Origin: Lewinella sp. W8
GTDB lineage: Bacteria; Bacteroidota; Bacteroidia; Chitinophagales; Saprospiraceae
Direction of reading: 5' to 3'
Assembly: GCF_004375085.3 (NCBI RefSeq)
Contig: NZ_SNAQ03000002.1
Coordinates: 186,001-250,000 of the forward strand
DNA length: 64,000 nucleotides
The notes under the pieces are model-generated. The model was given only the letters and a program-made list of their open reading frames with translations, was not told the DNA's origin and ran no database searches. The translations under genes and the position numbers were made by a program. Positions 36,882-56,457 of this stretch are shown one piece after another. The number at the start of each line of letters is the position of its first letter. Positions within the stretch are counted from its first letter, which is position 1.

Positions 36882-39800
36882 ATGAAAGCACTATTCCTCC
36901 AGTTGCTACTCGTATTATCTGTAACCACCGCTTTCGCCCAGGCGCAGATGGTTACCGTCGAAGAAGACTCCGACGGCATCAGATTGATGGTTGATGGCGA
37001 ACCGTTTATGGTCAACGGCATGAACTGGGATTACTTCCCGAGGGGCACCAACGTTTTTTACAGCCTCTGGGACCAGCCCGACGACATCATTCGCGCGGCC
37101 CTGGACGGTGAAATGCCCCTCCTGCAAAATATGGGTGTGAATACGATCCGGGTGTACACCGGAATTCCCGCCCGGTGGATCACCTACATCTACGAGAAGT
37201 ACGGCATTTACACCATGCTCAACCACTCCTTTGGTCGTTACGGACTGACCATCGACGGTGGCTGGATGGCCAACACGGAATACGCCGATCCCCGCGTGAG
37301 GGAGTTGTTGCTGAAGGAGACCACCCAGATGGTGCAGGATTACAAGAATACGCCCGGACTACTGCTTTACTTACTCGGTAACGAAAACAATTACGGACTC
37401 TTCTGGGGCGGTGCGGAAACCGAAGATATCCCCGAAGAAAACGAAGCAGCGCTGATCCGGGCCCGGGCGATGTACAAGATTTTCAACGAAGCCACGCTGG
37501 CCATGAAGGCCGTGGACAGCTCCGTGCCCGTTGCCATGTGTAACGGTGACCTTCTGTTCCTCGATTTAGTCGTAGAGGAATGCCCCGACGTGGACATCTA
37601 CGGAACCAATATGTACCGCGGTGTATCCTTCGGGGATGCCTTTGAGCGGGTCCGCAGTGAATACGGCAAGCCCATCCTCTTTACGGAATTTGGCGCGGAC
37701 GCCTTCAACGCCGTTACCAACAGTGAAGACCAGCAGGCCCAGGCTTACTACATGGTGGGCAACTGGAAAGAAATTTACGCCAATGCCGCCGGTCTCGGCC
37801 TGGCCCAAAACTCTCTGGGGGGCTTCACCTTCCAGTTCAGTGACGGATGGTGGAAATTTGGCCAGACCGACAACCTGGACGTTCACGACAACAATGCCTC
37901 CTGGAGTAACGGCGGTTACGCCCACGACTTCGTCGAGGGTGAGGACAACATGAACGAAGAGTGGTTTGGTGTCGCGGCTAAGGGGCCCACCAACGAGCGG
38001 GGGTTATACAACCTCTATCCGCGGGCCGCCTACTACGCCTTGAAAGAAGCCCATCAGTTTAATCCCTACCGGGAGGGGGTAACGGTAAACTCCATCGAGC
38101 AGTACTTCAGTGGCATCAACCTGATGGACGCCGTCAGCAAGGCCCGCGGCGACAAGGCCGCCATGATGACCGAACAGGCGAGTAAAATTCAGCTCAGCCG
38201 ACTGAGCGCGGAGCTTTCCACCTTCAACACTGGTGGCAGTCTGGTATCCACCCCCAAGGAAGATGACCCCACCGACAACGTCTTCCCCAACGCCCAGGGA
38301 TTTGACCATATGCAGTCCTTCTTCGTGGGGGTCTCGGCAAACCCGAATCCCAGTTTCCGGGCGAACGTCGAGTTCAACATTCTCGGGAACGTAGCCCAGA
38401 ACCCGATCAACGAAATCTTCTACGAGAACCGGGGACGCCCCATCGAAGTGAACACCACCATTAATGGACTCGTAACCCAGGGCGACGTAAACCGGGTGGC
38501 GGTTTACCGTGCCGACTTTAACTGGGCCCACGAGAAGTTTGACATGAAGGGCTTCTACCGAACGGGGCACTACCACTGGGGTTACGAAGGCGACTTCTTC
38601 AACCTTTACCCCGAAGCCAACTACGGGCCGAACATCGACATCTACAACGGCAACGCCCCCCTTGGTGTAGAATTCGAGGGTAAGAAAGAATTTAAGGGAT
38701 TAACCGTAGCCATGGGTCCGGAACTGTGGTGGGGAGCCAACCCCGCCGTGCTGGTTAAGTACCACCGCGAAGTCATGGGCATGGAGGTTACGGGTATCTT
38801 CCACGAAGACCTGCAGGACCGGCAGCAGTCCGAAAGTTCATTCGCCATCCCTCAACCCCGGACGCGGCGCGCTACCCTGCAGATCGAGAAGGAAATGGGC
38901 CCGTTCACCCTCCAGGCCGGTGGTATTTGGGGCGGTAGTCCGCTGATCGGCCGCGAATTCCAGATCGTGGACGGCGAAGCCGGCGACTACACCGTGTACA
39001 AAGATCAAATTGAAAGTAGCGACAACTGGGGGGGTAAGCTAAAACTTACCTACTCCAAAGGTCCCATCAACTGGTACGCCCAGGGGGCTGCCCAGGGGCT
39101 GGTGGCCAACGGTGGTGCCGACCCCACCCTCACCTTTACCGGGTGGAAGCTCAAGGACAGCGGCAGCGGAAACATGTACAACTTCCTGACCGGTTTCACT
39201 TACCTCGTCGGCGATCTGCAAATTGCTCCCAACTTCCTCTGGCAACGCCCCATTGAGGATCCGATTCCGGGGGACGTGGACGGCCCCGGTCGCCCGCGCA
39301 ACATTCTCGATGATCCCTTCGTCGTCCGCGGTGGTAACCGCGAACAGGTTGCGGGCGAAATCCTGTTTACCTACGATCCCACTCCGGGCACCTTCATGTA
39401 CCAGTGGGACAACGACCGCGCGGAAGACGCCAAGTTCGCCATGAGTGCGGGCTTCGTATTCCGTCACCTCCCCACGACCCAGGATGCCTCCATCGGTATC
39501 CTCCCCGACGGCCGGACGTTCTTTGCCTTCCCCGGTGCGGCTCCGGCCGATGACCTCTGGGAGGCCCACGCCAGAATCGTTTCCAAAGCAAACAAAGAGC
39601 TGGGGGTAGTAGCCAATATCTACACCGGTACCGCTCAGGCCAACGGAGACAGTGAGCGGACCATCCAGCGCTTCGGCACGGACGTCCGGCTGATCTACAA
39701 GCGACTCAAGCTCATTGGGGCCTTCCGCCTGAATGACTGGGGACCCTACGATTATCACCGGGACTTCAACCAGACCTTCCCCACCCAGATGTCGCTGGAC

Positions 39801-40022
39801 CTCTCCACCACGCTGGGTAAGGCCCGGTGGCTGGCCCTTCCCGAAACGAAGCTCGGCATCATGGGTATTTTCCGTACCCTCGACGAATTCTCTCCCCGCT
39901 ACTGCCCGACCCGCACCATCGGCCCCGATGGCATCCTGGCCTGCGACGCCATGGCACCAGGCTTTGCCAACGGTAACGAATGGGAAATCCGTACTTACCT
40001 GCACGTAAACATTTTCAAGTAA
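36882..40022 (+). CDS. Clan GH-A glycosidase fused to a putative outer-membrane beta-barrel
   Basis: A 1046-aa exported protein with signal MKALFLQLLLVLSVTTAFAQ. Residues about 25-400 are a TIM-barrel glycosidase: VNGMNWDYFPRGTN, MGVNTIRVYTGIP, acid/base-type Glu168 in LGNENNYG, and nucleophile-type Glu269 in LFTEFGAD. The layout recalls beta-1,3-glucan enzymes of clan GH-A (GH72-, GH2- or GH158-like); the exact family is not fixed. Residues about 460-1046 differ entirely: serial amphipathic strands rich in aromatic and Gly residues, joined by polar loops, ending TYLHVNIFK, as in outer-membrane barrels. It is the first gene of the locus, 25 nt before the binding lipoprotein. The catalytic role is fairly sure; the barrel is an inference from strand pattern. 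Confidence 0.7.
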   Translation: MKALFLQLLLVLSVTTAFAQAQMVTVEEDSDGIRLMVDGEPFMVNGMNWDYFPRGTNVFYSLWDQPDDIIRAALDGEMPLLQNMGVNTIRVYTGIPARWITYIYEKYGIYTMLNHSFGRYGLTIDGGWMANTEYADPRVRELLLKETTQMVQDYKNTPGLLLYLLGNENNYGLFWGGAETEDIPEENEAALIRARAMYKIFNEATLAMKAVDSSVPVAMCNGDLLFLDLVVEECPDVDIYGTNMYRGVSFGDAFERVRSEYGKPILFTEFGADAFNAVTNSEDQQAQAYYMVGNWKEIYANAAGLGLAQNSLGGFTFQFSDGWWKFGQTDNLDVHDNNASWSNGGYAHDFVEGEDNMNEEWFGVAAKGPTNERGLYNLYPRAAYYALKEAHQFNPYREGVTVNSIEQYFSGINLMDAVSKARGDKAAMMTEQASKIQLSRLSAELSTFNTGGSLVSTPKEDDPTDNVFPNAQGFDHMQSFFVGVSANPNPSFRANVEFNILGNVAQNPINEIFYENRGRPIEVNTTINGLVTQGDVNRVAVYRADFNWAHEKFDMKGFYRTGHYHWGYEGDFFNLYPEANYGPNIDIYNGNAPLGVEFEGKKEFKGLTVAMGPELWWGANPAVLVKYHREVMGMEVTGIFHEDLQDRQQSESSFAIPQPRTRRATLQIEKEMGPFTLQAGGIWGGSPLIGREFQIVDGEAGDYTVYKDQIESSDNWGGKLKLTYSKGPINWYAQGAAQGLVANGGADPTLTFTGWKLKDSGSGNMYNFLTGFTYLVGDLQIAPNFLWQRPIEDPIPGDVDGPGRPRNILDDPFVVRGGNREQVAGEILFTYDPTPGTFMYQWDNDRAEDAKFAMSAGFVFRHLPTTQDASIGILPDGRTFFAFPGAAPADDLWEAHARIVSKANKELGVVANIYTGTAQANGDSERTIQRFGTDVRLIYKRLKLIGAFRLNDWGPYDYHRDFNQTFPTQMSLDLSTTLGKARWLALPETKLGIMGIFRTLDEFSPRYCPTRTIGPDGILACDAMAPGFANGNEWEIRTYLHVNIFK

Positions 40023-43082: not shown

Positions 43083-43940
43083 ATGCAGTATTCCATCAAT
43101 ATTCGACGGAGCCTCTCCACGCTCCGGTTTTTCCTTCCCCTGACCGCCGTCTTACTGGTGTTTTCCGCCTGCGAGGTAGACGAAGAACAGCAACTGGAGC
43201 AACGCAATTATAGCCTGGTCTGGAGCGATGATTTTGACGGCGCCGCCGGTGAATCCCCTGATCCTAACAACTGGAACTTTGACATCGGAACCGGCGATAA
43301 TGGCTGGGGCAACCAGGAGCTTCAGTTCTACACGGACCGCACCGAGAACGTATCCATGGACGGCCAGGGCAACCTGGTCATTACCGCCCGGCGGGAGACC
43401 TTCGGCGGGATGCCCTTCACCTCGGGCCGCATCACGACCAAGGATAAGTTTGAGCAGCAGTACGGTCGCTTTGAGGCCCGCATGAAAACGCCCTACGGGC
43501 CCGGCATCTGGCCGGCCTTCTGGCTACTGGGCGCCAACATCGACACCTCTCCCTGGCCCCAGTGTGGCGAAATTGACGTCATGGAGCTTCGCGGACAGGA
43601 GCCCAACAAGATCGCCGGCAGCCTGCACGGTCCGGGCTACTCCGCCGGCGATGCCGTGACGAGCGACTTCGCACTACCAAACGCCCGTTTCGACGATGAC
43701 TTCTACATCTTTGCCATCGAGTGGGGTGAGGACTACATCGATTACTTCGTCAACGACCGCCTCTACCAGCGCATCACGCCCGAGGACGCCGACGGAGAAT
43801 GGGTGTTCGACGCTCCGTTTTACATGCTGCTTAACGTGGCCGTGGGCGGCACCTACGTGGGCTTCCCCACGAGCCAGACGCCCTTCCCCCAGCCGATGAT
43901 CATCGATTACGTCCGGGTCTACCAGCAAACCAACAGCTAG
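43083..43940 (+). CDS. GH16 endo-beta-1,3-glucanase (laminarinase-type) lipoprotein
   Basis: A 285-aa lipoprotein with lipobox F-S-A-C30. The GH16 jelly-roll carries the catalytic motif G-E163-I-D165-V-M-E168 (nucleophile Glu163, acid/base Glu168), the Met-containing ExDxxE form of laminarinases and other beta-1,3-acting members. WSDDFDG, NPNNW-like openings, TSGRITTKDKFEQQYGRFEA, RMKTPYGPGIWPAFWLLG and the closing FPQPMIIDYVRVYQ support the call. It is anchored in a membrane, probably outer and surface-facing, and cleaves beta-1,3- or mixed-linked glucan to oligosaccharides. It lies 65 nt after the binding lipoprotein and is followed by a strong inverted-repeat hairpin. Confidence 0.95.
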   Translation: MQYSINIRRSLSTLRFFLPLTAVLLVFSACEVDEEQQLEQRNYSLVWSDDFDGAAGESPDPNNWNFDIGTGDNGWGNQELQFYTDRTENVSMDGQGNLVITARRETFGGMPFTSGRITTKDKFEQQYGRFEARMKTPYGPGIWPAFWLLGANIDTSPWPQCGEIDVMELRGQEPNKIAGSLHGPGYSAGDAVTSDFALPNARFDDDFYIFAIEWGEDYIDYFVNDRLYQRITPEDADGEWVFDAPFYMLLNVAVGGTYVGFPTSQTPFPQPMIIDYVRVYQQTNS

Positions 43941-44159: not shown

Positions 44160-47100
44160 ATGGTCGAGATCCAACAGGTAAGCATTAACGGACAGGCTTT
44201 CTACAAAATGACGAATAGCGACGCGATGCGTCCGTTCTTTATGAGCATTGTCAGCGATGTGAACCACTGGATGTTCATCTCCAGCAACGGCGGCCTTAGT
44301 GCCGGTCGGAAAAACGCCGAATACGCGCTGTTTCCGTACTACACGGACGATAAGATCACCGAATCCGCCGAAATCACCGGCAGCAAATCCATCTTTCGGG
44401 TCGAAAAGGAAGGTAACACCCATCTCTGGGAGCCCTACAGTATTCGGTACCGTGACCGCTACCAAATAAGCCGTAACCTCTACAAGAGCATCTACGGCAA
44501 CGAGATCATCTTTGAGGAGATCAACCACGATCTGGAGCTGGCTTTTCGGTACCAGTGGAGCTCCAGTAACCGCTTCGGGTTCGTGCGTACCGCCACGCTG
44601 AAAAATTTGGCCGACAGCAAAATATCCGTATCTGCCCTGGACGGGGTGCAGAACATTGTCCCCTACGGCGTGGGTAGTGAACTCCAGAACCGCTCCAGTA
44701 ATCTGGTGGACGCCTACAAGCGCAATGAGCTGGACCGGGCTTCCGGCATCGGCATCTTTGCCCTGAGTGCGATCATCGTAGACAAAGCCGAACCCAGCGA
44801 GGCGTTGAAGGCCAATATCGTGTGGTCCCTCGGGCTCGAAAATCCAACCTACCTGGTTTCTTCGCGCCAACTGGAGGCCTTCCGCAACGGAGAAACCCTC
44901 CGGGAAGAGACCGACGTAAAGGGAGAGAAGGGAGCCTACTTTGCCCATCAACAACTGGAGCTTGCCGCGGTAGGCCAGCAATCGTGGACGATGGTGGCCA
45001 ACGTCAACCAGAATCACGCCGCGGTGGCCCGACTGCAGCAAGCCCTTGAGCACCCTCAGCGCCTGGAGGTGGAGGTGCGCGAAGACGTGGCACTGGGCAC
45101 GAAACGCCTGGTTGGCCTGTGTGCCGCGGCGGACGGCATTCAGCAGACCGCTGACTCCAAGCGGGATACCCGCCACTTCTCCAACGTGCTGTTCAACATC
45201 ATGCGTGGAGGCATATTTGACGACAACTACAACATTGAGCGGCAAGACTTCCTTCCCTACCTGAAGAAAGCCAACCAGGCCGCCTTTGCGGCCCACCGGG
45301 AGCTACTGGATAGCCTGCCGGCCATTTTCACCCTGGAAGAACTGAAATCCCTCCTGGAGCAATCCACTGATCCGGATTTCCAGCGACTATGCCTGGAATA
45401 TCTCCCCCTGAAATTCAGTCGGCGTCACGGTGACCCCAGCCGCCCCTGGAACCGCTTTTCGATCAACACCAACAGTGAGATTGACGGCTCAAAAATCCTG
45501 GATTACGAAGGGAACTGGCGGGATATTTTCCAGAACTGGGAGGCGCTGGCCTACGCCTATCCGGAGTTCATCGAGGGGATGATCAGCAAGTTCGTCAACG
45601 CGACCACCTTTGATGGCTACAACCCCTACCGGGTAACCAAAGACGGTTTTGACTGGGAGACCATTGAGCCCGACGACCCCTGGTCCTACATCGGGTACTG
45701 GGGAGATCACCAGATCATCTACCTGCTGAAATTCCTCGAACTGATCGAGAAACATCAGCCGGGTCAGTTAGAGCGTTACTTCTCGCGGGACTTGTTCGTG
45801 TACGCCAACGTTCCCTACAAGATCAAGTCGTACGAGGACATTCTGGCGAACCCCAAAGACACCATTGATTTCGATCAGCAACTGGACGCCGCCATCCGGA
45901 AGCGGCGGAAAGAAATGGGCGCCGATGGCGCCTTGCTCACCGACCGCAGCGGGGACATCTACCGGGTGAACTTTATGGAAAAATTACTGGCCACCCTGCT
46001 GGCCAAGCTTTCTAACTACATTCCCGAAGGGGGCATCTGGATGAACACCCAGCGCCCGGAATGGAACGACGCCAATAACGCCCTGGTGGGCAACGGCGTC
46101 TCCATGGTCACGCTGTACTACCTGCGTCGTTTCCTCAACTTCTTCGACGGTTTACTGGATCAGGCGGCCGACGGCCCCTACGCCGTATCCCGGGAACTGA
46201 AGGAACTTTTTGAGCAGATCACCGCGACCCTGTCCAGTAACGAAAACCTTCTGCAGGGTTCCATCAACGACAAGGATCGCAAGGCTGTCCTAGACGGCCT
46301 CGGGAAGGCTGGCGACCGTTTCCGGACCACCATTTACCAGGAATCCTTTTCCGGCGAGAAGGAAAAGCTTTCCCGGGAAGAACTCCGGGCGTTTACCCGG
46401 ACGGCCCTGGCCCACATTGACCATTCCGTTCGGGCCAACCGCCGCGAGGACGGCCTTTACCACGCCTACAACCTCATGACGCCGGAGCCCCAGGGCGTAT
46501 CGATCAGTTACCTGAGCGAAATGCTGGAGGGACAGGTAGCCGTACTGAGTGCGGGATCGCTGACGCCCACCGAAGCCCTTTCGGTACTGGATGGTATGAA
46601 GCAGAGCGCCTTATTCCGTCCGGATCAGTACAGCTACATCCTGTACCCGAACAAGCAGCTTCCCGGCTTCCTGTCCAAGAATGTAGTTCCCGCCACGGCG
46701 GTCGACAACTCCCAGTTGCTGAGCAAGATGGTAGCAGCCGGAGACGGGCGCATCGTGGAGCGGGACGTCCACGGGGCGTACCACTTCAACGGCAACTTCA
46801 AAAATGCCGCGGACCTGGGGGCCGCACTCGACACGCTGGAGGATCCCACCTACGCCAAGCTGGCCGAGGCGGAGCGCAAGCAACTCCTGGGCGCCTTTGA
46901 GGCCGTCTTTAACCACAAGGAGTTCACCGGTCGATCGGGCACCTTTTTTGGCTACGAGGGGCTGGGGTCCATTTACTGGCACATGGTATCCAAACTACTG
47001 CTGGCCGTTCAGGAATGCTGCCTCGACGCCATCGAGCAAAATGCCAGTGCCGAAACTACGGGCCGGCTGCTGGAGCACTACTACGAAATTCTGGAGGGGA

Positions 47101-47576
47101 TCGGGGTTCACAAATCCCCTACCCTATACGGGGCTTTCCCGACGGATCCCTATTCGCACACACCGGCAGGAAAGGGTGCCCAGCAACCCGGCATGACCGG
47201 TCAGGTAAAGGAAGACATCCTGAGTCGGATTGGCGAACTGGGCGTGATCGTGCACCGGGGGCAGCTCACCTTCCGTCCGGATTTGTTGCGAAAGGCGGAA
47301 TTTCAGACATCCGCCACCGAGTTTGAATACGTGGATTTGGCGGGCAAACGCCAAAGCATTGACGTGCCCGCGAAGTCTCTCTGTTTTACCTACTGTCAGG
47401 TGCCGGTGATTTACTCCATCTCCGGAGAAGAAGGGTTAGACATCCACTTTACGGACGGCAGGAAAGAATCCCTCCAGGGAGCAAGTCTGACGCAGGACTA
47501 CAGTCGGCACATCTTCCAACGGACCGACGCCATCCACCACCTCCGGGTGAAGCTGGCCGAAAGTAGCCTGAAATAG
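44160..47576 (+). CDS. GH149-like beta-1,3-oligoglucan phosphorylase
   Basis: A 1138-aa cytoplasmic protein with no signal peptide. It has the GH94-related layout: an N-terminal beta-sandwich (about 1-280: NHWMFISSNGGLSAGRKNAE, ALFPYYTDDKI), a linker helix and an alpha/alpha barrel. Asp637 in PEWNDANNALVGNG corresponds to the catalytic Asp of GH94 (DWND). The length of about 1100 aa and the segment SVLDGMKQSALFR...YILYPNKQLPGFL fit GH149, whose known members phosphorolyse beta-1,3-glucan oligosaccharides to glucose 1-phosphate. GH161 is the nearest alternative. It starts at ATG 44160, and the next gene follows after 13 nt. Surrounding GH16, GH17 and GH30 genes support the substrate. Confidence 0.82.
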   Translation: MVEIQQVSINGQAFYKMTNSDAMRPFFMSIVSDVNHWMFISSNGGLSAGRKNAEYALFPYYTDDKITESAEITGSKSIFRVEKEGNTHLWEPYSIRYRDRYQISRNLYKSIYGNEIIFEEINHDLELAFRYQWSSSNRFGFVRTATLKNLADSKISVSALDGVQNIVPYGVGSELQNRSSNLVDAYKRNELDRASGIGIFALSAIIVDKAEPSEALKANIVWSLGLENPTYLVSSRQLEAFRNGETLREETDVKGEKGAYFAHQQLELAAVGQQSWTMVANVNQNHAAVARLQQALEHPQRLEVEVREDVALGTKRLVGLCAAADGIQQTADSKRDTRHFSNVLFNIMRGGIFDDNYNIERQDFLPYLKKANQAAFAAHRELLDSLPAIFTLEELKSLLEQSTDPDFQRLCLEYLPLKFSRRHGDPSRPWNRFSINTNSEIDGSKILDYEGNWRDIFQNWEALAYAYPEFIEGMISKFVNATTFDGYNPYRVTKDGFDWETIEPDDPWSYIGYWGDHQIIYLLKFLELIEKHQPGQLERYFSRDLFVYANVPYKIKSYEDILANPKDTIDFDQQLDAAIRKRRKEMGADGALLTDRSGDIYRVNFMEKLLATLLAKLSNYIPEGGIWMNTQRPEWNDANNALVGNGVSMVTLYYLRRFLNFFDGLLDQAADGPYAVSRELKELFEQITATLSSNENLLQGSINDKDRKAVLDGLGKAGDRFRTTIYQESFSGEKEKLSREELRAFTRTALAHIDHSVRANRREDGLYHAYNLMTPEPQGVSISYLSEMLEGQVAVLSAGSLTPTEALSVLDGMKQSALFRPDQYSYILYPNKQLPGFLSKNVVPATAVDNSQLLSKMVAAGDGRIVERDVHGAYHFNGNFKNAADLGAALDTLEDPTYAKLAEAERKQLLGAFEAVFNHKEFTGRSGTFFGYEGLGSIYWHMVSKLLLAVQECCLDAIEQNASAETTGRLLEHYYEILEGIGVHKSPTLYGAFPTDPYSHTPAGKGAQQPGMTGQVKEDILSRIGELGVIVHRGQLTFRPDLLRKAEFQTSATEFEYVDLAGKRQSIDVPAKSLCFTYCQVPVIYSISGEEGLDIHFTDGRKESLQGASLTQDYSRHIFQRTDAIHHLRVKLAESSLK

Positions 47577-47589
47577 TTCACTCCAAACG

Positions 47590-48879
47590 ATGAACAGTAA
47601 AACAGAACTCATGCAAAAAATTCACGTTTCGTTACTGTTTTTGGCCGTACTATTCATGGCCGCATGTTCTACTAAAAATCAACCAGTTATGGAGGTGAAC
47701 AGCCTCACTGCCGCCGATATTCTTGGCAACCCCGATTACCAGGCCATTTCCTACGGAGGATACCGGGGAACCACCAGAGACGAGCAACCCACGATTGCGG
47801 AGTTGAAGGAAGATATGCTGATTCTATCCGCCATGGGTATCAAGGTATTGCGGACCTACAACGTACAATTCCCCCACGCCGGAAACGTGCTCAAGGCCAT
47901 CCGGGAACTAAAGCAGGCCGACCCGAATTTTGAGATGTACGTGATGCTTGGCGCGTGGATCGACTGCAAAAACGCCTGGACCGACCTTCCCCCGGATCAC
48001 GATCAGGAAAGTGAGCAAAATGCCGGTGAAATTGACCGTGCGGTTGCCCTGGCGAACGAGTACCCCGACATCGTCAAAGTAATTGCGGTAGGAAATGAGG
48101 CCATGGTGAAATGGGCCACCAGTTACTTCGTCCAACCGGGCGTAATCCTCAAGTGGGTCACGCACCTTCAGAACCTGAAGGCCGAAGGAAAGCTGGCCAG
48201 TGATTGCTGGATAACCAGCTCCGACAACTTTGCCTCCTGGGGGGGCGGAGATGCCGAATATCACGTTCCGGACCTCACGGCACTCATCAAAGCGGTTGAT
48301 TACCTGTCCATCCACACTTACCCCATGCATGACACCCACTACAATCCCGTATTCTGGGGGGTGCCAGCCGAAGGGGAAGGAAGTAGTGAAAAAGAACAGA
48401 TCCAGCTGGCCATGGACCGGGCCAAAGACTATGCGGTATCCCAGTACAATGCGGTCGTTGAGTACATGAAGGCGCAGGGCGTTGACAAACCCGTACACAT
48501 CGGAGAAACGGGATGGGCGAGCAGCTCCAATGGTTTTTACGGCGATCCTGGTTCCCGGGCCACGGACGAGTACAAACAGTCGCTGTTCTACCAGCAGATT
48601 CGCGACTGGTCCGACGAAAATGGCGTTTCCTGTTTCTTTTTTGAAGCCTTCAATGAACCCTGGAAAGATGCGGCCAACCCCGGAGGGTCGGAAAACCACT
48701 TCGGACTGTTCACCGTCGACGGTAAGGCAAAGTATGCCCTGTGGCCGCTGGTGGACGAAGGCATATTTGACGGTCTGAGCCGGGGAGGGAATCCAATCGT
48801 AAAGACATTCAACGGCAACGAAACGGAACTTTTCCAGACCGTTGCGCTTCCGCCTGACGCCACCGCCGTTGCTCAGTAA
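47590..48879 (+). CDS. GH17 glucanase-type lipoprotein
   Basis: A 429-aa lipoprotein with lipobox M-A-A-C26. The GH17 TIM barrel has acid/base Glu170 in VGNEAM and nucleophile Glu306 in IGETGWAS, with VLRTYNVQFPHAGNVLKAIR and DYLSIHTYPMHDTHYNP typical of the family. FFFEAFNEPWKDA is the last barrel strand. GH17 enzymes act on beta-1,3-glucans as endo- or exo-hydrolases or transglycosylases; the mode here is open. Its start could also be the internal Met at residue 8, which leaves a shorter signal. It is 13 nt after the phosphorylase and 14 nt before GH30. Confidence 0.9.
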   Translation: MNSKTELMQKIHVSLLFLAVLFMAACSTKNQPVMEVNSLTAADILGNPDYQAISYGGYRGTTRDEQPTIAELKEDMLILSAMGIKVLRTYNVQFPHAGNVLKAIRELKQADPNFEMYVMLGAWIDCKNAWTDLPPDHDQESEQNAGEIDRAVALANEYPDIVKVIAVGNEAMVKWATSYFVQPGVILKWVTHLQNLKAEGKLASDCWITSSDNFASWGGGDAEYHVPDLTALIKAVDYLSIHTYPMHDTHYNPVFWGVPAEGEGSSEKEQIQLAMDRAKDYAVSQYNAVVEYMKAQGVDKPVHIGETGWASSSNGFYGDPGSRATDEYKQSLFYQQIRDWSDENGVSCFFFEAFNEPWKDAANPGGSENHFGLFTVDGKAKYALWPLVDEGIFDGLSRGGNPIVKTFNGNETELFQTVALPPDATAVAQ

Positions 48880-48893
48880 AACAATCAAGTCGC

Positions 48894-50408
48894 ATGAAGT
48901 ATCTGATTCACTTTCCTCTTTATCTGGCGCTGCTGATATCCGGATGTGCGTCGGATGCTGACCCCGCCAATCGTGACGCGAGTATGTCCACCGCCGCCTT
49001 TACCATTGTCGAAACTTCCGCTGCGGGCAACAAACTCCAGGAAATCATTCCGGAAGAAAACCTTGAGCCCCGCGCATCCCTGACGCTACGCCCCCAGGAG
49101 ACCTTTCAAACCATTACGGGTATCGGGGGCTCCTTTACTGAAGCATCGGCCTACCTGCTCAACCAACTCAGTGAGGATAAGCGAAGGGAAATCCTGGAAG
49201 CCTATTTCGGTGATGCGGGCGCCCGGTATTCCCTGACGAGAACGCACATTAATTCCTGCGATTTCTCCCTGAGTAATTACTCTTACGCTCCCGTAGCGGG
49301 TGATAAGGAACTGGAGAATTTCTCCGTCGAAGAAGATCGGGAAGACCTTATTCCAATGATCAAAGATGCCCAGGCAACGTCCACCGAAGGGTTCAGGATC
49401 ATCGCTTCCCCCTGGACGGCTCCCCCCTGGATGAAGGACAACAATGACTGGCGGGGCGGAAAGTTGCTACCAGAATATTACGACACCTGGGCGCTGTTCT
49501 TTTCGAAATACCTTGATGCCTACCGGGCTGAGGGCATTGACATTTGGGGTGTCACCGTCGAGAACGAACCGCTCGGCAATGCGAACAACTGGGAGAGTAT
49601 GCACTTTTCCCCCGAAGAAATGACGGCGTTCGTCGCCAATCACCTGGGACCAAAGCTGGCCGCTGATGGGCAAGAGGTCAAAATTTTGGGCTACGACCAA
49701 AACCGGGAGGAACTTGACAAGTGGGTGGACGTCATGTACGCCAACGAGGCCTCCGCCAGTTACTACGACGGTACGGCCGTCCACTGGTACGCGAGTACCT
49801 TTGACTGGTTTCCCGAAATGCTGCAGTACGCTCACAAAGCGGCGCCGGACAAGCATTTAATCCAGACGGAGGGCTGCATCGACGCGGAGGTTCCCGCCTG
49901 GCAGGACGATGACTGGTACTGGAGCAAGGAAGCCACCGACTGGGGCTGGGACTGGGCCCCCGAAGACCAAAAACACCTCCACCCCAAGTACGTACCCGTT
50001 TACCGGTACGCCCGTGACATCATTGGTTGCCTGAACAACTGGGTGGATGGCTGGATCGACTGGAACATGGTGCTTGATCGCCAGGGCGGCCCCAATTGGT
50101 TTAAAAACTGGTGCGGTGCTCCGGTAATCGTAGATCCCGACGCCAACGAGGTGTACTTCACGCCCCTGTACCACACCATGGTTCACTTCAGTCGGTATAT
50201 CCGCCCCGGTGCCCGACGGATTGGGTTTACCCTCTCCGATGACAGCCTCATGGCTACAGCTGTGCAAAATCCTGACGGGAGTATCGCCGTCGTGGTTCTC
50301 AATCAAACGGAAGAAAAGAAGACGTTTACCCTCACCCTGAACGAACACACACAACCGGTGAGCATCAGCCCCAGGGCCCTACAGACTATCCTGATTTCAC
50401 GGGGGTAG
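48894..50408 (+). CDS. GH30 beta-glucosidase/beta-1,6-glucanase-type lipoprotein
   Basis: A 504-aa lipoprotein with lipobox I-S-G-C18. It has a TIM barrel plus side beta-domain of GH30: ITGIGGSFTEASAYLLNQLS, SLTRTHINSCDFSLSNYSY, IIASPWTAPPWMKDN, acid/base Glu225 in VENEPLG and nucleophile Glu326 in IQTEGCI, ending in a beta-sandwich with IRPGARRIG. Members from laminarin loci hydrolyse the beta-1,6 branches of laminarin, which would complement GH16 and GH17 here; other GH30 members are glucosylceramidases. It follows GH17 by 14 nt and precedes the transporter fusion by 33 nt. Confidence 0.92.
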   Translation: MKYLIHFPLYLALLISGCASDADPANRDASMSTAAFTIVETSAAGNKLQEIIPEENLEPRASLTLRPQETFQTITGIGGSFTEASAYLLNQLSEDKRREILEAYFGDAGARYSLTRTHINSCDFSLSNYSYAPVAGDKELENFSVEEDREDLIPMIKDAQATSTEGFRIIASPWTAPPWMKDNNDWRGGKLLPEYYDTWALFFSKYLDAYRAEGIDIWGVTVENEPLGNANNWESMHFSPEEMTAFVANHLGPKLAADGQEVKILGYDQNREELDKWVDVMYANEASASYYDGTAVHWYASTFDWFPEMLQYAHKAAPDKHLIQTEGCIDAEVPAWQDDDWYWSKEATDWGWDWAPEDQKHLHPKYVPVYRYARDIIGCLNNWVDGWIDWNMVLDRQGGPNWFKNWCGAPVIVDPDANEVYFTPLYHTMVHFSRYIRPGARRIGFTLSDDSLMATAVQNPDGSIAVVVLNQTEEKKTFTLTLNEHTQPVSISPRALQTILISRG

Positions 50409-50441: not shown

Positions 50442-52796
50442 ATGTCACAAGTCGAGCAGGCAGTCAAAAAAGTACCCTTCATTCAAAAAGTCGCCTTTGG
50501 TCTTGGCATGCTGGCCAACCAAATGTTCCCCGCCATCCTGGGGATTTTCATGGTCGTCTTAATTGAAAACCTGGGCTTCCCGGGCTGGATGTACGGCCTC
50601 ATCGCTTTCGCCCCGCGGGTTTTCGATTCGATTACCGACCCCATTATGGGTTTCATCTCCGATAATACCCGGTCAAAGTGGGGCCGGAGGCGTCAGTACG
50701 TTTTGATTGGGGGCGTCGTGATGGGAATTGCCTTCATCTTCATGTGGCAGCTCTTCAAGGAGAACTCCCTGCAGTTCAACTTCTGGTACTTCTTCCTCTG
50801 GTCCATCGTCTTTTACCTCGGCCTCACCATCTTCAGCGTGCCCTACGTGGCCATGGGATACGAAATGAGCGATGATTTTCACGAACGGACCAACATCATG
50901 GCCACCGCCCAGTGGATCGGGCAGTGGGCGTGGGTGATTGCCCCCTGGTTCTGGATCATTATGTACGACCCGGAATGGTTCGCTACCGCCGAGGAAGCGA
51001 CCAGGACACTCGCATACTACGTGGCCATTCCCTGTGCGATTTGTGCCATCATACCGGCCATCTTCATCCCCGGAGAGTCCACCGTCGACCGGGAAGACTA
51101 TGAACCTTTGACGCTGTCAAAAATCGGCGGCAGCCTGACGAAGATTTTCGGCGGATTCAGAGATGCCTTCCGGATCAAATATTTCCGCCAGCTTTGTTTC
51201 TCCACTTTCCTGATCTTTAATTCCTTCAATACCGTTGCGGCGCTTACCTTTTTCGTCATTGTTTACAAGTTATTCAACGGTGATGCGGCGGCAACGGGCG
51301 TCTGGGTGGTCCTCTTCGGCAGCATTGGGGCACTGTGTACGACCTTCATCGTTATCCCCATCGTAACCTGGATGTCGAAGGCCATCGGTAAGCGTAAGGC
51401 ATTTCTGCTTTCTCAGGGTATTTCGCTTATCGGCTATACCCTGATGTGGTTTCTTTTCGTCCCCGGAAAGCCCTGGCTTTATCTCATTGCGCTCCCCTTC
51501 TTTTCCTTTGGTATCGGCAGTCTGTTTACCATCATGATGTCCATGACGGCCGACGTGATTGACATCGACGAGCTCAACACCGGCCTGCGGCGGGAAGGAA
51601 TTTTTGGGGCCATTTACTGGTGGATGGTCAAATTCGGCTTTGCCATTGCCGGCGGACTGAGTGGTTTGATGATTGCCGTCGTCGGTTTTGATTCTTCGTT
51701 GCCCACTACGGAACAACAGGGAGCGGTAGATGGCCTGCACGCCTTTTTCTGCTTCTTCCCCATGCTCGGCACCATCGGGGCCATCCTGATTATGTGGTCC
51801 TATGACCTCACGGAGGAGAAGGCCAACAAAATCCGCGCCACGATCAACGCCAGAAAACTGGGCATCACCGGTTCCTCCGCTTACCTGCCGGGTAAGCTGG
51901 TGGCGCTCCACGGCCAGGCCATTCCCGCCTTCGGGGTGGACTTCAGCGGATTCTCCTCTCCCGACCTTCACCGGGGATTCACCGGTGCGCTGGAAGACCA
52001 AATCCCGGGTCTTTGTTTCAGTCCCTATCTGGAAGGTCAGGATACGGATGACGTACTCTCCGCGGCCCAGATTCGGCACCGGATCAGCATCATCAAACCC
52101 TACACCCGAAGTCTGCGGTCCTTCTCCTGTACCGGGGGTAACGAACTTACGCCCGGCATTGCCCGAGAGCACAATCTGGACACCATGGTAGGGGCCTGGA
52201 TCAGCCGGGACAAAAAACGGAATCAGGAAGAAATTGCGAACCTTATCCAACTGGCCCAAGCCGGCGAGGTCAACATTGCCGCCGTCGGGAACGAGGTGCT
52301 GCTCCGGAATGAACTGGCTCCGGGAGAGATCATCAAATACTTGAAAGAAGTAAGGGCTCAAGTCCCCGCTTCCGTCCCCGTTGGCTACGTCGACGCCTAC
52401 TACCAGTTCCTCGATCATCCGGACCTGATTGAGCAGAGTGACGTCATTCTGATCAACTGTTATCCCTTCTGGGAGGGCGCCACCATTGAAACCGCCCTGG
52501 GCTACCTGGAAAGAATGTACGAAATGGTGAAGGCCGTAGCCAAAGGCAAGGAGGTAATCATTGCCGAAACGGGTTGGCCGAGTAAAGGACAGGAAGTAGA
52601 AGGTGCCCGGCCCTCCGCCGAAAACGCCATGAAGTACTTCATCAACGTCCAACAGTGGTCCAAAGAGAACAACATCACCGTGTACTACTTTACGTCCTTC
52701 GACGAAACCTGGAAAACCCAGCAGGAAGGCGAAGTAGGAGCCCGTTGGGGACTCTGGAACAAGGACGAACAACTCAAGTACGGTGACAACAATTAA
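50442..52796 (+). CDS. GPH-type sugar symporter fused to a GH17 domain
   Basis: A 784-aa two-part protein. Residues 1-460 form a glycoside-pentoside-hexuronide:cation symporter of the MFS superfamily, with about 12 helices: FVPRVFDSITDPIMGFISD-like loop (APRVFDSITDPIMGFISDNT), RSKWGRRRQYVLIG, FSVPYVAMGYEMS, DVIDIDELNTGLRREGIFGA. After a short linker, residues about 490-784 are a complete GH17 domain with Glu618 in VGNEVLLRN and Glu709 in AETGWPS, the two catalytic positions. The GH17 part closely resembles the next gene. With the usual GPH topology, both termini are cytoplasmic, so oligosaccharides would meet the hydrolase as they enter. No stop codon or frame break lies in the linker. The fusion itself is plain in the sequence; the coupling is inferred. 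Confidence 0.92.
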   Translation: MSQVEQAVKKVPFIQKVAFGLGMLANQMFPAILGIFMVVLIENLGFPGWMYGLIAFAPRVFDSITDPIMGFISDNTRSKWGRRRQYVLIGGVVMGIAFIFMWQLFKENSLQFNFWYFFLWSIVFYLGLTIFSVPYVAMGYEMSDDFHERTNIMATAQWIGQWAWVIAPWFWIIMYDPEWFATAEEATRTLAYYVAIPCAICAIIPAIFIPGESTVDREDYEPLTLSKIGGSLTKIFGGFRDAFRIKYFRQLCFSTFLIFNSFNTVAALTFFVIVYKLFNGDAAATGVWVVLFGSIGALCTTFIVIPIVTWMSKAIGKRKAFLLSQGISLIGYTLMWFLFVPGKPWLYLIALPFFSFGIGSLFTIMMSMTADVIDIDELNTGLRREGIFGAIYWWMVKFGFAIAGGLSGLMIAVVGFDSSLPTTEQQGAVDGLHAFFCFFPMLGTIGAILIMWSYDLTEEKANKIRATINARKLGITGSSAYLPGKLVALHGQAIPAFGVDFSGFSSPDLHRGFTGALEDQIPGLCFSPYLEGQDTDDVLSAAQIRHRISIIKPYTRSLRSFSCTGGNELTPGIAREHNLDTMVGAWISRDKKRNQEEIANLIQLAQAGEVNIAAVGNEVLLRNELAPGEIIKYLKEVRAQVPASVPVGYVDAYYQFLDHPDLIEQSDVILINCYPFWEGATIETALGYLERMYEMVKAVAKGKEVIIAETGWPSKGQEVEGARPSAENAMKYFINVQQWSKENNITVYYFTSFDETWKTQQEGEVGARWGLWNKDEQLKYGDNN

Positions 52797-52822
52797 TTCC
52801 ACTACTCAACTAACCATCGATC

Positions 52823-53710
52823 ATGTCATATAAACCAGGTAAAAACCTCGCCCTCTCCGGGGTCAACTTCACGGATAAAAGCCGCGAGGAGGTGGCCGAA
52901 GCCTTTCTGAAAATGCTTGAAGGCGGAATGCATGGCCTTTGTATGAGTCCCTACGTGGAGGGGCAGCAGCCCGGAGATCTGTTGTCGGAAGAGCAGGTCC
53001 GGCGCAGAATCGGGATCATGCAGCCATTTACCAACTGGGTCCGTTCCTTCTCCTGTACCGAAGGCAATGAGCTGGTCGCCAAAGTAGCCCGGGAAATGGG
53101 CCTCAGCACCATGGTGGGGGCCTGGCTCGGCAAGGACCAGGAAAAGAACGAAGCCGAAATCGAGGGGCTGATTAAACTGGCCAAAGCAGGCTTTGTGGAT
53201 ATTGCCGCCGTCGGCAACGAGGTGATGTACCGGAAAGACCTGACCGAAGACGAGCTGCTCGAAGCCATTGAACGGGTAAAACAGGCCCTTCCCGGCGTAC
53301 CGGTGGGCTACGTGGATGCCTACTACGAGTTTTCTCACCGTCCCCGGATCACCGCCGCCTGTGACGTCATCCTGGCAAATTGCTACCCCTACTGGGAAGG
53401 CTGTCATATTGACTACTCCCTGGTGTACATGAAGCAAATGTACCACCAGGCCAAAGCCGCCGGTCAGGGTAAAAAGGTAATCATCACCGAAACGGGCTGG
53501 CCAAGTCAGGGCGAGGGCCTGGAGGGGGCCATGCCCTCCGAAGTGAACGCCATGCGTTACTTCATCAACGCCCAATCCTGGGCCCGGGAAGAGAACATCG
53601 ATATTTTCTATTTCTCTTCCTTCGATGAATCCTGGAAGGTGGGCGCAGAAGGTGACGTCGGGGCCTACTGGGGCATCTGGGACAAGGACGAAAAGCTGAA
53701 GTTTGTCTGA
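52823..53710 (+). CDS. Cytoplasmic GH17 family protein
   Basis: A 295-aa single-domain GH17 protein without signal peptide or lipobox, so cytoplasmic. Catalytic residues are Glu133 in VGNEVMYRKD and Glu223 in TETGWPSQG. It is clearly paralogous to the fused domain of the preceding gene (shared YVDAYY, VRSFSC or LRSFSC, MVGAW, and FYFSSFDESWK or YYFTSFDETWK), indicating a tandem duplication. It likely shortens imported beta-1,3-glucan oligosaccharides, or transglycosylates them, alongside the GH149-like phosphorylase. It is 26 nt after the fusion gene and 41 nt before the regulator. Confidence 0.9.
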   Translation: MSYKPGKNLALSGVNFTDKSREEVAEAFLKMLEGGMHGLCMSPYVEGQQPGDLLSEEQVRRRIGIMQPFTNWVRSFSCTEGNELVAKVAREMGLSTMVGAWLGKDQEKNEAEIEGLIKLAKAGFVDIAAVGNEVMYRKDLTEDELLEAIERVKQALPGVPVGYVDAYYEFSHRPRITAACDVILANCYPYWEGCHIDYSLVYMKQMYHQAKAAGQGKKVIITETGWPSQGEGLEGAMPSEVNAMRYFINAQSWAREENIDIFYFSSFDESWKVGAEGDVGAYWGIWDKDEKLKFV

Positions 53711-53751: not shown

Positions 53752-56457
53752 ATGGATAGGATCACGATCATCATCATTGCCCTGTTGGTGGGTCTCCCGT
53801 CGCTGCGGGCACAAAAGTTTCCCAGCAAGGGCATTCCGCAGGTGAGCAATTACACCCCGGAGGCCTACGGCAATGCCGGAAAGGTTTGGCGTATCGCATC
53901 GGCCGACAACGGTATCGTGTATTTCGCCACAGATCGCGGGCTCCTTGAATTTGATGGCGCCCGGTGGCAGCGGTTTCCGGGTAGTAAAGGTTTCACGAGA
54001 TCAATTGCACTGGCCTCAGACTCTATCTTCTATACCGGGGCCGACAAGGACTTTGGTCGCTGGCGCAAGGATGAACTGGAAAGATTCCGGTACACTTCCC
54101 TCAACCCTTTCCGGGAAAGCACCAGAGGACTAAATCAGGAGTTCTGGGGCACCCACCGAATTGATGAGGACATCATTTTTGTTTCCTTCGACAACATCTA
54201 CGTATACCGGAATGAACAGCTCACCCAAATTGCTGCCCCCAGCCGTTTTACCGGAAGCTTCTCCTCAAGTAATAAGGTTTATCTGCACGATGAGGCCGAA
54301 GGATTAATGGTCTTTGATGGCCTCTCGCTCACTCCCCTGCTTGACTTATCCACGCCCACCGGTTTCTCCATGGAAGTGGTAGGCATGCAGGAGAATGAAG
54401 GGGGCGCCCTGGTGGTTACGCGCAACCAGGGGCTTTTCCAGTTTAACGGCGGCACCCTGGAGCCGATTGACAATGAGGTGAGCAGCTTCCTGCGGAGAGA
54501 TCAGGCCTTCTCCTTCACGGTCATCGAGGAAACCCACTATGCCTTTGGTACCATCCTGAATGGCGTTTACATCACTGATGCCGAGGGAAGGATTATTCAG
54601 CACATCAACAAGCAAAAAGGACTACTCAACAATACCATCCTCAGCCTACACTACAGTGAGCAGGGGAAACTATGGGTGGGCATGGACTTTGGCATCGCTG
54701 CCATCAGCTTATGGAGTGACCTGGCGTATTTTCTGGACCAACGTGGCCAGGTGGGTACCGGCCAGACGGCCTTACTGGTCGATGGCGTCTTTTATTTAGG
54801 CACCAATCAGGGACTCTACACCATCCCCTGGGAAGACCTCGAAAATGATGACCAGGTCATCGACTTCCAACTGGTTCCCGGTTCCTCCGGTCAGGTGTGG
54901 AGCCTGGAGTACGTTAACGGAAACATCCTCTGCGGCCACGACCTGGGACTCTTTCAACTCCAGAACGGTCGCCTGGAACCCCTCCACGATGAGCCGGGGG
55001 TGCTCTTCATCACTTCCCCCGACGACGACCACCTGATCACGGGAAACTATAATGGAGTATCCCTCTTCGAGTTGCAGAACGGAAAATGGACCTTCCTGAG
55101 AAAAATACCGCCCCTTCAGGGAGCCGTAAATCAGGTATTCGTCCGGGATAACCTTCTTTGGGCCAACCTCCCCAACTTCGGGGTGATCAAAGCAAGTCTC
55201 GGAGAAGACTACCAGATTCTGGATCAGGTCATTTATCCCCTTGATACCTTCGGGGCCAGTCAAGTCGAACTGGACCTTTCGGGAGAGTCGGTGCGGGTGG
55301 TCACCCACCGGGAAATTTACGGCCTGGGGGAAAAAGGAGACCAATTCATGCCCCAGGGTATTACGCCTCACCCGGACCGGATCAACAATCTCCTCCCGGG
55401 CACCCTGCTGCCAAGAAAAATTAACGAAGACTTTGGCTTCTACCCCGTTTCCAACGGATTCGCCCTCGAAAACATCGCATATACGGGACAGGCACCTGCT
55501 CCCCCACCCCTCAAAATCCGCACCGTTACGGCCTTCAACAACGATACCATCAGACCGCTGCAGAACGGGGAAGAAGTACCCCGTAGAATCGGTAATCTGA
55601 GGTTTGACTACATCGTGCCCCAACATGACGGTGTATTGTACCAGTATCGCCTGGTAAATTATGACGATACCTGGAGTGAGTGGACGCACCAAAACTCGGC
55701 CGAGTTCCTCAACCTTGATGCCGGGGTGTATGAGTTTCAGGTCCGGGCCAAGACGGAAGAAGAGGTCGGCACACCAGCTACCTTTTCGCTTAGCGTGACC
55801 GTTCCGTGGTACCGAAGTAGCGCGGCCTTCATCGGATATGGATTACTGATTCTGGGGGGCATTGTCCTTAATCACCGGTGGCAAAAGCGGCGGATCAGAA
55901 GGCAACAACAGGCCGTTCTTGAGCGGGAGAAACATTCTCTTCAGGAAAGGGCCATCATCCAGGAGCGGGATAACATGACCAGACGTTACCAGATGATGGA
56001 AGACGCTATTGCGGACGTAAAAAAACAATTACGGAGCAAGACCATCGAACTGGCCAAAAAAGCCAAAGAAAGTGAGGAAAAAAGTCGCGTTCTGATCGCC
56101 ATGAAGGAGAAAATAGCGGCCCTGGACAAAGGGGACGGTGCCCCGCAGCGGCTGGGGGAACTCAAGCGGATGCTGGCCCATTTTCCCGAAACGGAAGACA
56201 GCAGTTTTGAGCTCCAGATGGAGGAGCTGCACAACGAATTTCTCTCCATCATGAGCAGCCGGTATCCGGACCTGACCAATTACGACCTCCGGCTTTGTGC
56301 CTACCTGAAGACCGGCCTCAGCACCCGCGAAATCGCCGGGCTGATGAATGTGCTGCCTTCGAGTGTCAACGTCAGTCGGTCGCGACTGCGCAAAAAACTT
56401 GGCCTGGCCCCCAAGGAGGATTTGTACAAGTTCCTGAATGGGGTGGCGAAAGCCTAG
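53752..56457 (+). CDS. SusR-like membrane-spanning regulator with LuxR-type HTH
   Basis: A 901-aa regulator with signal/anchor MDRITIIIIALLVGLPSLRA, a periplasmic beta-propeller (about 25-600, blades such as DNGIVYFATDRGLLEFDGAR and EQGKLWVGMDFGIAAISLW), a Y_Y_Y domain (about 610-680, YQYRLVNYDDTWSEW), one membrane helix near 686-706 (AAFIGYGLLILGGIVLNHRW), a coiled coil (about 710-800) and a C-terminal LuxR-like HTH (LTNYDLRLCAYLKTGLSTRE, IAGLMNVLPSSVNVSRSRLR). It has no kinase or receiver. Proteins of this design, like SusR, sense glycan pieces in the periplasm and activate nearby polysaccharide genes. Placed last in the glucan locus, it is the obvious controller. Confidence 0.9.
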   Translation: MDRITIIIIALLVGLPSLRAQKFPSKGIPQVSNYTPEAYGNAGKVWRIASADNGIVYFATDRGLLEFDGARWQRFPGSKGFTRSIALASDSIFYTGADKDFGRWRKDELERFRYTSLNPFRESTRGLNQEFWGTHRIDEDIIFVSFDNIYVYRNEQLTQIAAPSRFTGSFSSSNKVYLHDEAEGLMVFDGLSLTPLLDLSTPTGFSMEVVGMQENEGGALVVTRNQGLFQFNGGTLEPIDNEVSSFLRRDQAFSFTVIEETHYAFGTILNGVYITDAEGRIIQHINKQKGLLNNTILSLHYSEQGKLWVGMDFGIAAISLWSDLAYFLDQRGQVGTGQTALLVDGVFYLGTNQGLYTIPWEDLENDDQVIDFQLVPGSSGQVWSLEYVNGNILCGHDLGLFQLQNGRLEPLHDEPGVLFITSPDDDHLITGNYNGVSLFELQNGKWTFLRKIPPLQGAVNQVFVRDNLLWANLPNFGVIKASLGEDYQILDQVIYPLDTFGASQVELDLSGESVRVVTHREIYGLGEKGDQFMPQGITPHPDRINNLLPGTLLPRKINEDFGFYPVSNGFALENIAYTGQAPAPPPLKIRTVTAFNNDTIRPLQNGEEVPRRIGNLRFDYIVPQHDGVLYQYRLVNYDDTWSEWTHQNSAEFLNLDAGVYEFQVRAKTEEEVGTPATFSLSVTVPWYRSSAAFIGYGLLILGGIVLNHRWQKRRIRRQQQAVLEREKHSLQERAIIQERDNMTRRYQMMEDAIADVKKQLRSKTIELAKKAKESEEKSRVLIAMKEKIAALDKGDGAPQRLGELKRMLAHFPETEDSSFELQMEELHNEFLSIMSSRYPDLTNYDLRLCAYLKTGLSTREIAGLMNVLPSSVNVSRSRLRKKLGLAPKEDLYKFLNGVAKA

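Follow-up and report, generated by a model that had tools for sequence, protein, structure and literature searches.

The window, a 64,000-nucleotide stretch of Lewinella DNA, contains a laminarin operon in which one gene encodes a transporter and a GH17 glycoside hydrolase as a single polypeptide (Table 1). The genes are arranged in the order GH149, GH17A-type lipoprotein, GH30 lipoprotein, fusion, stand-alone GH17 and regulator, separated by intergenic gaps of 13, 14, 33, 26 and 41 bp; signal peptides and lipoprotein N-termini were judged by eye. Also found in this cluster is a 1046-residue protein (36882–40022, forward strand), with an N-terminal GH2/GH72-like barrel and about 600 residues lacking a Pfam match. 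Relatives of this protein were matched in 54 of 390 Bacteroidota genomes; numerous matches span its full length and others cover the GH part alone. The amphipathic-strand count of its C-terminal part, 16, is just mildly above that of shuffled sequences (mean 10.8, s.d. 2.5, maximum 19), a weak hint at an outer-membrane part.

Table 1 Features of the laminarin operon and of its fused gene, in window coordinates
Feature	Position	Strand	Evidence
GH16, lipoprotein-like N-terminus, ending 219 bp before GH149	43083..43940	+	
GH149 beta-1,3-glucan phosphorylase, no visible signal peptide	44160..47576	+	NF058639, 1811 bits (cut-off 1150)
GH17A-type, lipoprotein-like N-terminus, probable periplasmic laminarinase	47590..48879	+	
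GH30, lipoprotein-like N-terminus; putative beta-1,6-glucosidase by analogy with FbGH30	48894..50408	+	
Fused gene, MFS_2/GPH-type transporter and GH17, 784 aa	50442..52796	+	ORF, Pfam, structure model, Foldseek
Transporter domain, residues 13–452, 12 transmembrane helices	50478..51797	+	Averaged hydrophobicity profile, model, Foldseek
Linker, residues 453–500	51798..51941	+	Averaged profile, sequence, AF2 model
GH17 domain, residues 480–780, N-terminal limit approximate	51879..52781	+	Pfam, structure matches, model
Glu618 codon, predicted acid/base, equivalent to MlGH17B Glu133	52293..52295	+	Residue alignment
Glu709 codon, predicted nucleophile, equivalent to MlGH17B Glu223	52566..52568	+	Residue alignment
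Stand-alone GH17 of 295 aa, lacking a visible signal peptide	52823..53710	+	
Regulator-like protein (Y_Y_Y; LuxR-type domain slightly below cut-off), starting 41 bp after the stand-alone GH17	53752..56457	+	

The fused gene is one open frame, from an ATG at 50442 to a stop at 52796, with no internal stop. Its transporter half matches Pfam MFS_2 (PF13347, residues 19–458, E = 3e-64, 217.6 bits against a cut-off of 27) and also MFS_1; its score against NCBIfam TIGR00792 (gph), 172.8 bits, lies below the curated cut-off of 231.35, and we therefore call the transporter GPH-type and file it under MFS_2. The C-terminal half matches Glyco_hydro_17 (PF00332) at residues 704–780, with 45.8 bits against a gathering score of 28.2, a match that spans only profile positions 225–302 of 306. 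Both catalytic motifs are present, AVGNE (Glu618) and IAETGW (Glu709), the second glutamate aligning with the position mutated to alanine in the RmBgt17A active-site mutant 4wtr. The two glutamates are invariant in all 66 fused and all 79 stand-alone GH17 domains from the window and the best 80 of at least 548 loci. The window gene has no in-frame ATG between residues 452 and 539, but GTG codons occur at residues 487 and 499, which leaves a small chance of an internal translation start. A 510-residue open frame antisense to the fusion (51270–52802, reverse strand) is unsupported as a gene and is probably a by-product of codon usage.

An AF2 model of the fused protein was obtained from 58 fused proteins (mean pLDDT 88.6, pTM 0.63). 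Foldseek matched its transporter half to the melibiose symporter MelB (9old, TMt 0.85) and its GH17 half to RmBgt17A (TMt 0.87). Sequence searches give the same two proteins as the closest solved structures: MelB when the transporter is used by itself as query (E = 1.5e-10), RmBgt17A with the C-terminal half (E = 7e-34). Beyond the fold, the transporter shares with MelB the cation-site aspartate pair: its Asp62 and Asp66 correspond to Asp55 and Asp59 of MelB and are invariant in 58 of 58 aligned fused proteins, as would fit cation-coupled sugar transport. Identity to MelB is however only 15–18% (Foldseek), Ser132 occupies the position of MelB Asp124, and MelB has no enzyme domain. Similarly, RmBgt17A, a glucanosyltransferase of Rhizomucor miehei, shares the GH17 fold and catalytic pair with the fused protein, but is fungal, unfused and 28–29% identical to the fused GH17. 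The first-pass annotation had described a 12-helix GPH transporter continuing without a stop into a complete GH17 domain with Glu618 and Glu709, a description that agrees with the single 784-residue frame, the MFS_2 match, the MelB fold and the invariant glutamates, the transporter being GPH-type only.

A hydrophobicity profile averaged over 58 homologues contains 12 segments at residues 28–450, while a single-sequence scan of the window protein detects only 11 in the transporter part; two weaker segments inside GH17 (600–616 and 661–677) overlap strands of the barrel domain in the model. With loop boundaries placed by hand, lysines and arginines sum on average to about 29 in the predicted cytosolic loops and tails, compared with about 4 in the periplasmic loops. 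An internal N-terminus followed by twelve helices would place the GH17 domain on the cytosolic side, which supports the inside C-terminus assumed in the first reading and is consistent with the lack of visible signal peptides in GH149 and the stand-alone GH17. A GH17 domain facing the periplasm, cleaving oligosaccharides prior to transport, would match the lipoprotein-like signals of the operon's other laminarinases, and two predicted cytosolic loops (137–152 and 370–386) contain more acidic than basic residues and are net negative; nevertheless, given the twelve helices, the overall positive-inside pattern with both termini inside, and the absence of a signal peptide from the fusion and likewise from its stand-alone paralogue, we regard this orientation as highly improbable. 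Tethering of the hydrolase at the inner mouth of the importer, as originally proposed, fits the predicted cytosolic C-terminus. The linker of the model consists of a helix (458–474) and a low-confidence hinge (475–479), after which comes a stretch resembling the start of the stand-alone GH17; with this hinge and a pTM of 0.63, fixed docking or channelling of GH17 at the channel mouth is not supported by the model.

A survey of databases for the same fusion had been suggested along with the first reading. Scanning named genomes for GH17-domain relatives gave at least 548 loci, and among the best 80, ordered by similarity to the fused domain, transporter and GH17 lie in one frame at 65 (66 with the window), with complete fused frames of more than 700 aa at 63 of the 80; unfused transporter ORFs number 15. 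The fused loci comprise 60 from Bacteroidota and five from Pseudomonadota, and the highest identity to the window fusion within this best-80 set is found in Neolewinella lacunae. The linker distance between residues 458 and 523 is 65–73 residues in all 58 aligned fused proteins. Of 395 Bacteroidota genomes sampled evenly, at least 15, counting that of the window, carry the two halves as a single frame, a count made from the matches with the ORFs of the other 14 fused genes checked; 153 of the 395 match the fused query at E ≤ 0.001, often through the transporter half alone. None of the 228 plasmid records with a match to the fused query covers at least 80% of it; one, a plasmid of Emticicia oligotrophica (NC_018743.1), encodes a protein closely related to the transporter half, with 62% across residues 1–472, the GH17 part being unmatched. 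A stop hidden by sequencing error is ruled out by fused homologues in two phyla, and a sequencing or assembly artefact behind the join, conceivable in principle with a single draft contig, has nothing found in its favour and a negligible probability, given the recurrence of the join in both genome sets.

The gene neighbourhood is retained as well. Among the 65 fused loci of the best 80, the fusion has GH149 nearby in at least 52, a GH17A-type gene in at least 55, GH30 in at least 50 and a stand-alone GH17 in at least 60, all lower bounds because several fused loci end early. At three loci (L122, L124 and L125), a close but unfused relative of the transporter adjoins GH149, with no GH17 within the stretch fetched, an arrangement that suggests beta-1,3-gluco-oligosaccharides as the cargo.

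The window fusion belongs to an already published kind, the MFS-GH17 chain. The sections consulted of Unfried 2018 (PMC6246565) describe FbGH17B (FORMB_24740, AOR29491.1) of Formosa sp. Hel1_33_131 as such a chain, common in marine Flavobacteriia, whose enzyme part converts debranched laminarin oligosaccharides to glucose in an exo-type manner, as judged from kinetics and products. Likened by this description, FbGH17B has the same domain order as the window fusion, 12 helices and then GH17, and a similar neighbourhood, with GH17A and GH30 beside it and GH149 in the strain's laminarin PULs; it comes from a different bacterium, Formosa instead of Lewinella, and those sections leave a neighbouring stand-alone GH17 undiscussed. 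According to the text available of PMC10108472, most of the variant-1 laminarin PULs expressed during a North Sea bloom contain GH17-MFS fusions; the bacteria concerned are Bacteroidota, SAR92, Luminiphilus and SAR86, gammaproteobacterial PULs included. Both the fusion and the PUL type correspond to those of the window, with expression in situ, and that text mentions the fusions without a tree or residue analysis. The two papers do not bear out the initial stress on the rarity of single chains of transporter and hydrolase. In Muricauda, the available parts of PMC13188888 and PMC11005184 present MlGH17B as single-module and list the MFS gene separately.

Starting from the continuous chain, with both its domains, their residues, the operon and the conservation observed, we consider it likely that laminarin oligosaccharides are imported by way of the fusion, whose tethered cytosolic GH17 would shorten them, releasing glucose. 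Periplasmic GH17A and GH30 would cleave and debranch laminarin, and the fused protein would perform the inner-membrane step, its MelB-like domain taking up what we infer to be linear beta-1,3-gluco-oligosaccharides together with a cation. On its short linker at the cytosolic exit side, the GH17 domain would trim the oligosaccharides as soon as they arrive, with release of glucose, and by analogy with the Formosa homologue its hydrolysis of debranched oligosaccharides may be of the exo type. The same oligosaccharide pool would also serve GH149, the cytosolic phosphorylase, and the stand-alone GH17. Local hydrolysis may speed net uptake, the forward pull on import proposed in the first reading. 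Points against this pathway include the loss, in glucose-releasing hydrolysis, of bond energy that GH149 would save, and exceptions to the active-site signature of the fused domain in both GH17 types.

This signature was read in the residue numbering of MlGH17B from Muricauda lutaonensis, a stand-alone beta-1,3-glucanosyltransglycosylase for which Tyr136, Trp191 and Glu192 are reported to be important for transglycosylation in the sections seen of PMC11005184. By its residues, MlGH17B falls in the same GH17 subgroup as the fused domain and has the same catalytic pair. It closely resembles the window stand-alone GH17, which agrees with it at 14 of the 15 residues of Table 3 in that paper (position 275 is Ala, not Ser) and has E133, E223, Y136, W191 and E192. 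The window fused domain, unlike the unfused MlGH17B, has neither its Tyr136 nor its Pro50; Trp677 and Glu678 are present, and Leu621 stands where MlGH17B has Tyr136. The transglycosylase residue set is thus complete in the stand-alone neighbour and incomplete in the fused domain.

This difference extends to the 66 fused (window included) and 79 stand-alone domains from the best 80 of at least 548 loci and the window, from which three partial GH17 ORFs had been removed beforehand and in which two fused domains (L062 and L075) are partial or short. Fused and stand-alone GH17 separate on one branch (FastTree, 145 domains), a split with an SH-aLRT of 100 (IQ-TREE, 76 of the 145). Common to both types are the catalytic pair, Trp101, Trp191, Glu192, Trp271, Lys272, Glu276 and Trp283, whereas Pro50 is found in 1/66 fused versus 77/79 stand-alone domains and Tyr136 in 0/66 versus 65/79. 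The 14 of 79 stand-alone domains without Tyr136 include those of Flagellimonas (L105) and Allomuricauda (L113), genera close to Muricauda. A genome bin labelled as the spirochaete Gracilinema caldarium also contains a stand-alone GH17 of the same group (L092). In a second set, found with the whole fused protein as query and partly covering the same species, stand-alone domains have Tyr136 in 22/23 and Pro50 in 23/23, and fused genes have Tyr136 in 2/14 (L015, L126) and Pro50 in 3/14 (L014, L015, L126); these counts exclude a duplicate row of the G042 gene and two distant GH17 proteins (L129 and L130). The latter are GH17 domains within ORFs of 551 and 535 aa, far from both types. A strict rule, by which the fused type occurs only on a transporter and the stand-alone type only apart from one, has no exception among the named loci; the second set breaks it, since G042 has a fused domain of the stand-alone type and L015 a fused domain with mixed residues. 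The fused GH17 is a clade apart from its stand-alone paralogue, with an altered active site and with exceptions.

The same residues bear on whether the fused GH17 is mainly a transglycosylase like MlGH17B, which would trap longer or branched chains, or feed them to the phosphorylase, instead of releasing glucose. The best solved match in both sequence and fold is a glucanosyltransferase, aglycone-side W677 and E678 are invariant in 66/66 fused domains (best 80 of at least 548 loci, and window), and the stand-alone MlGH17B has such an activity; yet the +1/+2 platform residue is Leu621 instead of tyrosine, Pro50 is replaced, and Formosa FbGH17B is reported to yield glucose. We regard a mainly transglycosylating domain as unlikely.

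The transporters have a history of their own. In a tree of 51 rows (15 unfused, seven of the Psychroflexus group and 29 others, these last thinned to about every second, with the partial L062 excluded), two lineages are separated by a long branch, with the 29 fused rows in one and seven fused rows among unfused relatives in the other. One clade of all fused transporters is rejected (p-AU 7.9e-55), ruling out a single transporter lineage behind every fusion. The GH17 domains carried by both lineages belong together (IQ-TREE); a clade of main-group GH17 domains without the Psychroflexus group gives a p-AU of 0.34. Within the Psychroflexus group, the seven transporters that are fused (L041, L053, L054, L058, L065, L067 and L098) do not form one clade either (p-AU 0.03). 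At one locus (L036), both transporter lineages stand in tandem, with the second-lineage transporter immediately preceding the fusion; we infer that a single deletion in such a tandem would swap the transporter, making it a possible intermediate.

Additionally, the fused GH17 of G042 (L126) groups with the stand-alone type, an all-fused GH17 clade being rejected (p-AU 0.009). Its junction retains an internal methionine where stand-alone genes start, and the 10 kb retrieved contain no further GH17 of the stand-alone kind on its own. This chain may be a fresh fusion, or a fused ancestor may have lost its original GH17 and then been joined to the next gene. Whichever history holds, there are transporter-GH17 pairings of three different kinds. 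In the main texts searched, as far as they were available, we found no account of the two-type signature, the transporter swap or the G042 pairing.

These pairings also inform the question of what the tether does. The fusion could provide only equal amounts and co-localisation, without kinetic coupling of transport and hydrolysis, as the low-confidence hinge, the pTM of 0.63 and the unfused systems of related lineages would allow; against this stand the occurrence of the join in two phyla, its nearly fixed linker, and its presence on two transporter lineages and, in G042, with a second GH17 type. We give a fusion without coupling somewhat less than an even chance. The tether is not essential, since some relatives keep the transporter unfused, and the existence of three different pairings argues that it is useful.

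We tentatively suggest, as a possibility we hold to be on the unlikely side, that the fused GH17 forms a lineage of enzymes dedicated to the exit side. It and a cytosolic transglycosylase-type paralogue would have diverged, its subsites shifting towards short-chain hydrolysis; it would have been kept on a transporter and have moved to a second, distant GPH-type lineage, while the unmodified paralogue was itself fused to the transporter elsewhere. Laminarin is a major marine carbon flux, and if this reading is true, transport and hydrolysis would be one vectorial step in laminarin feeding. Because the fused and stand-alone GH17 paralogues sit in one operon, hydrolysis and transglycosylation can be compared cleanly between them, and a one-chain importer and hydrolase in three pairings offers a natural test of whether tethering an enzyme speeds uptake.
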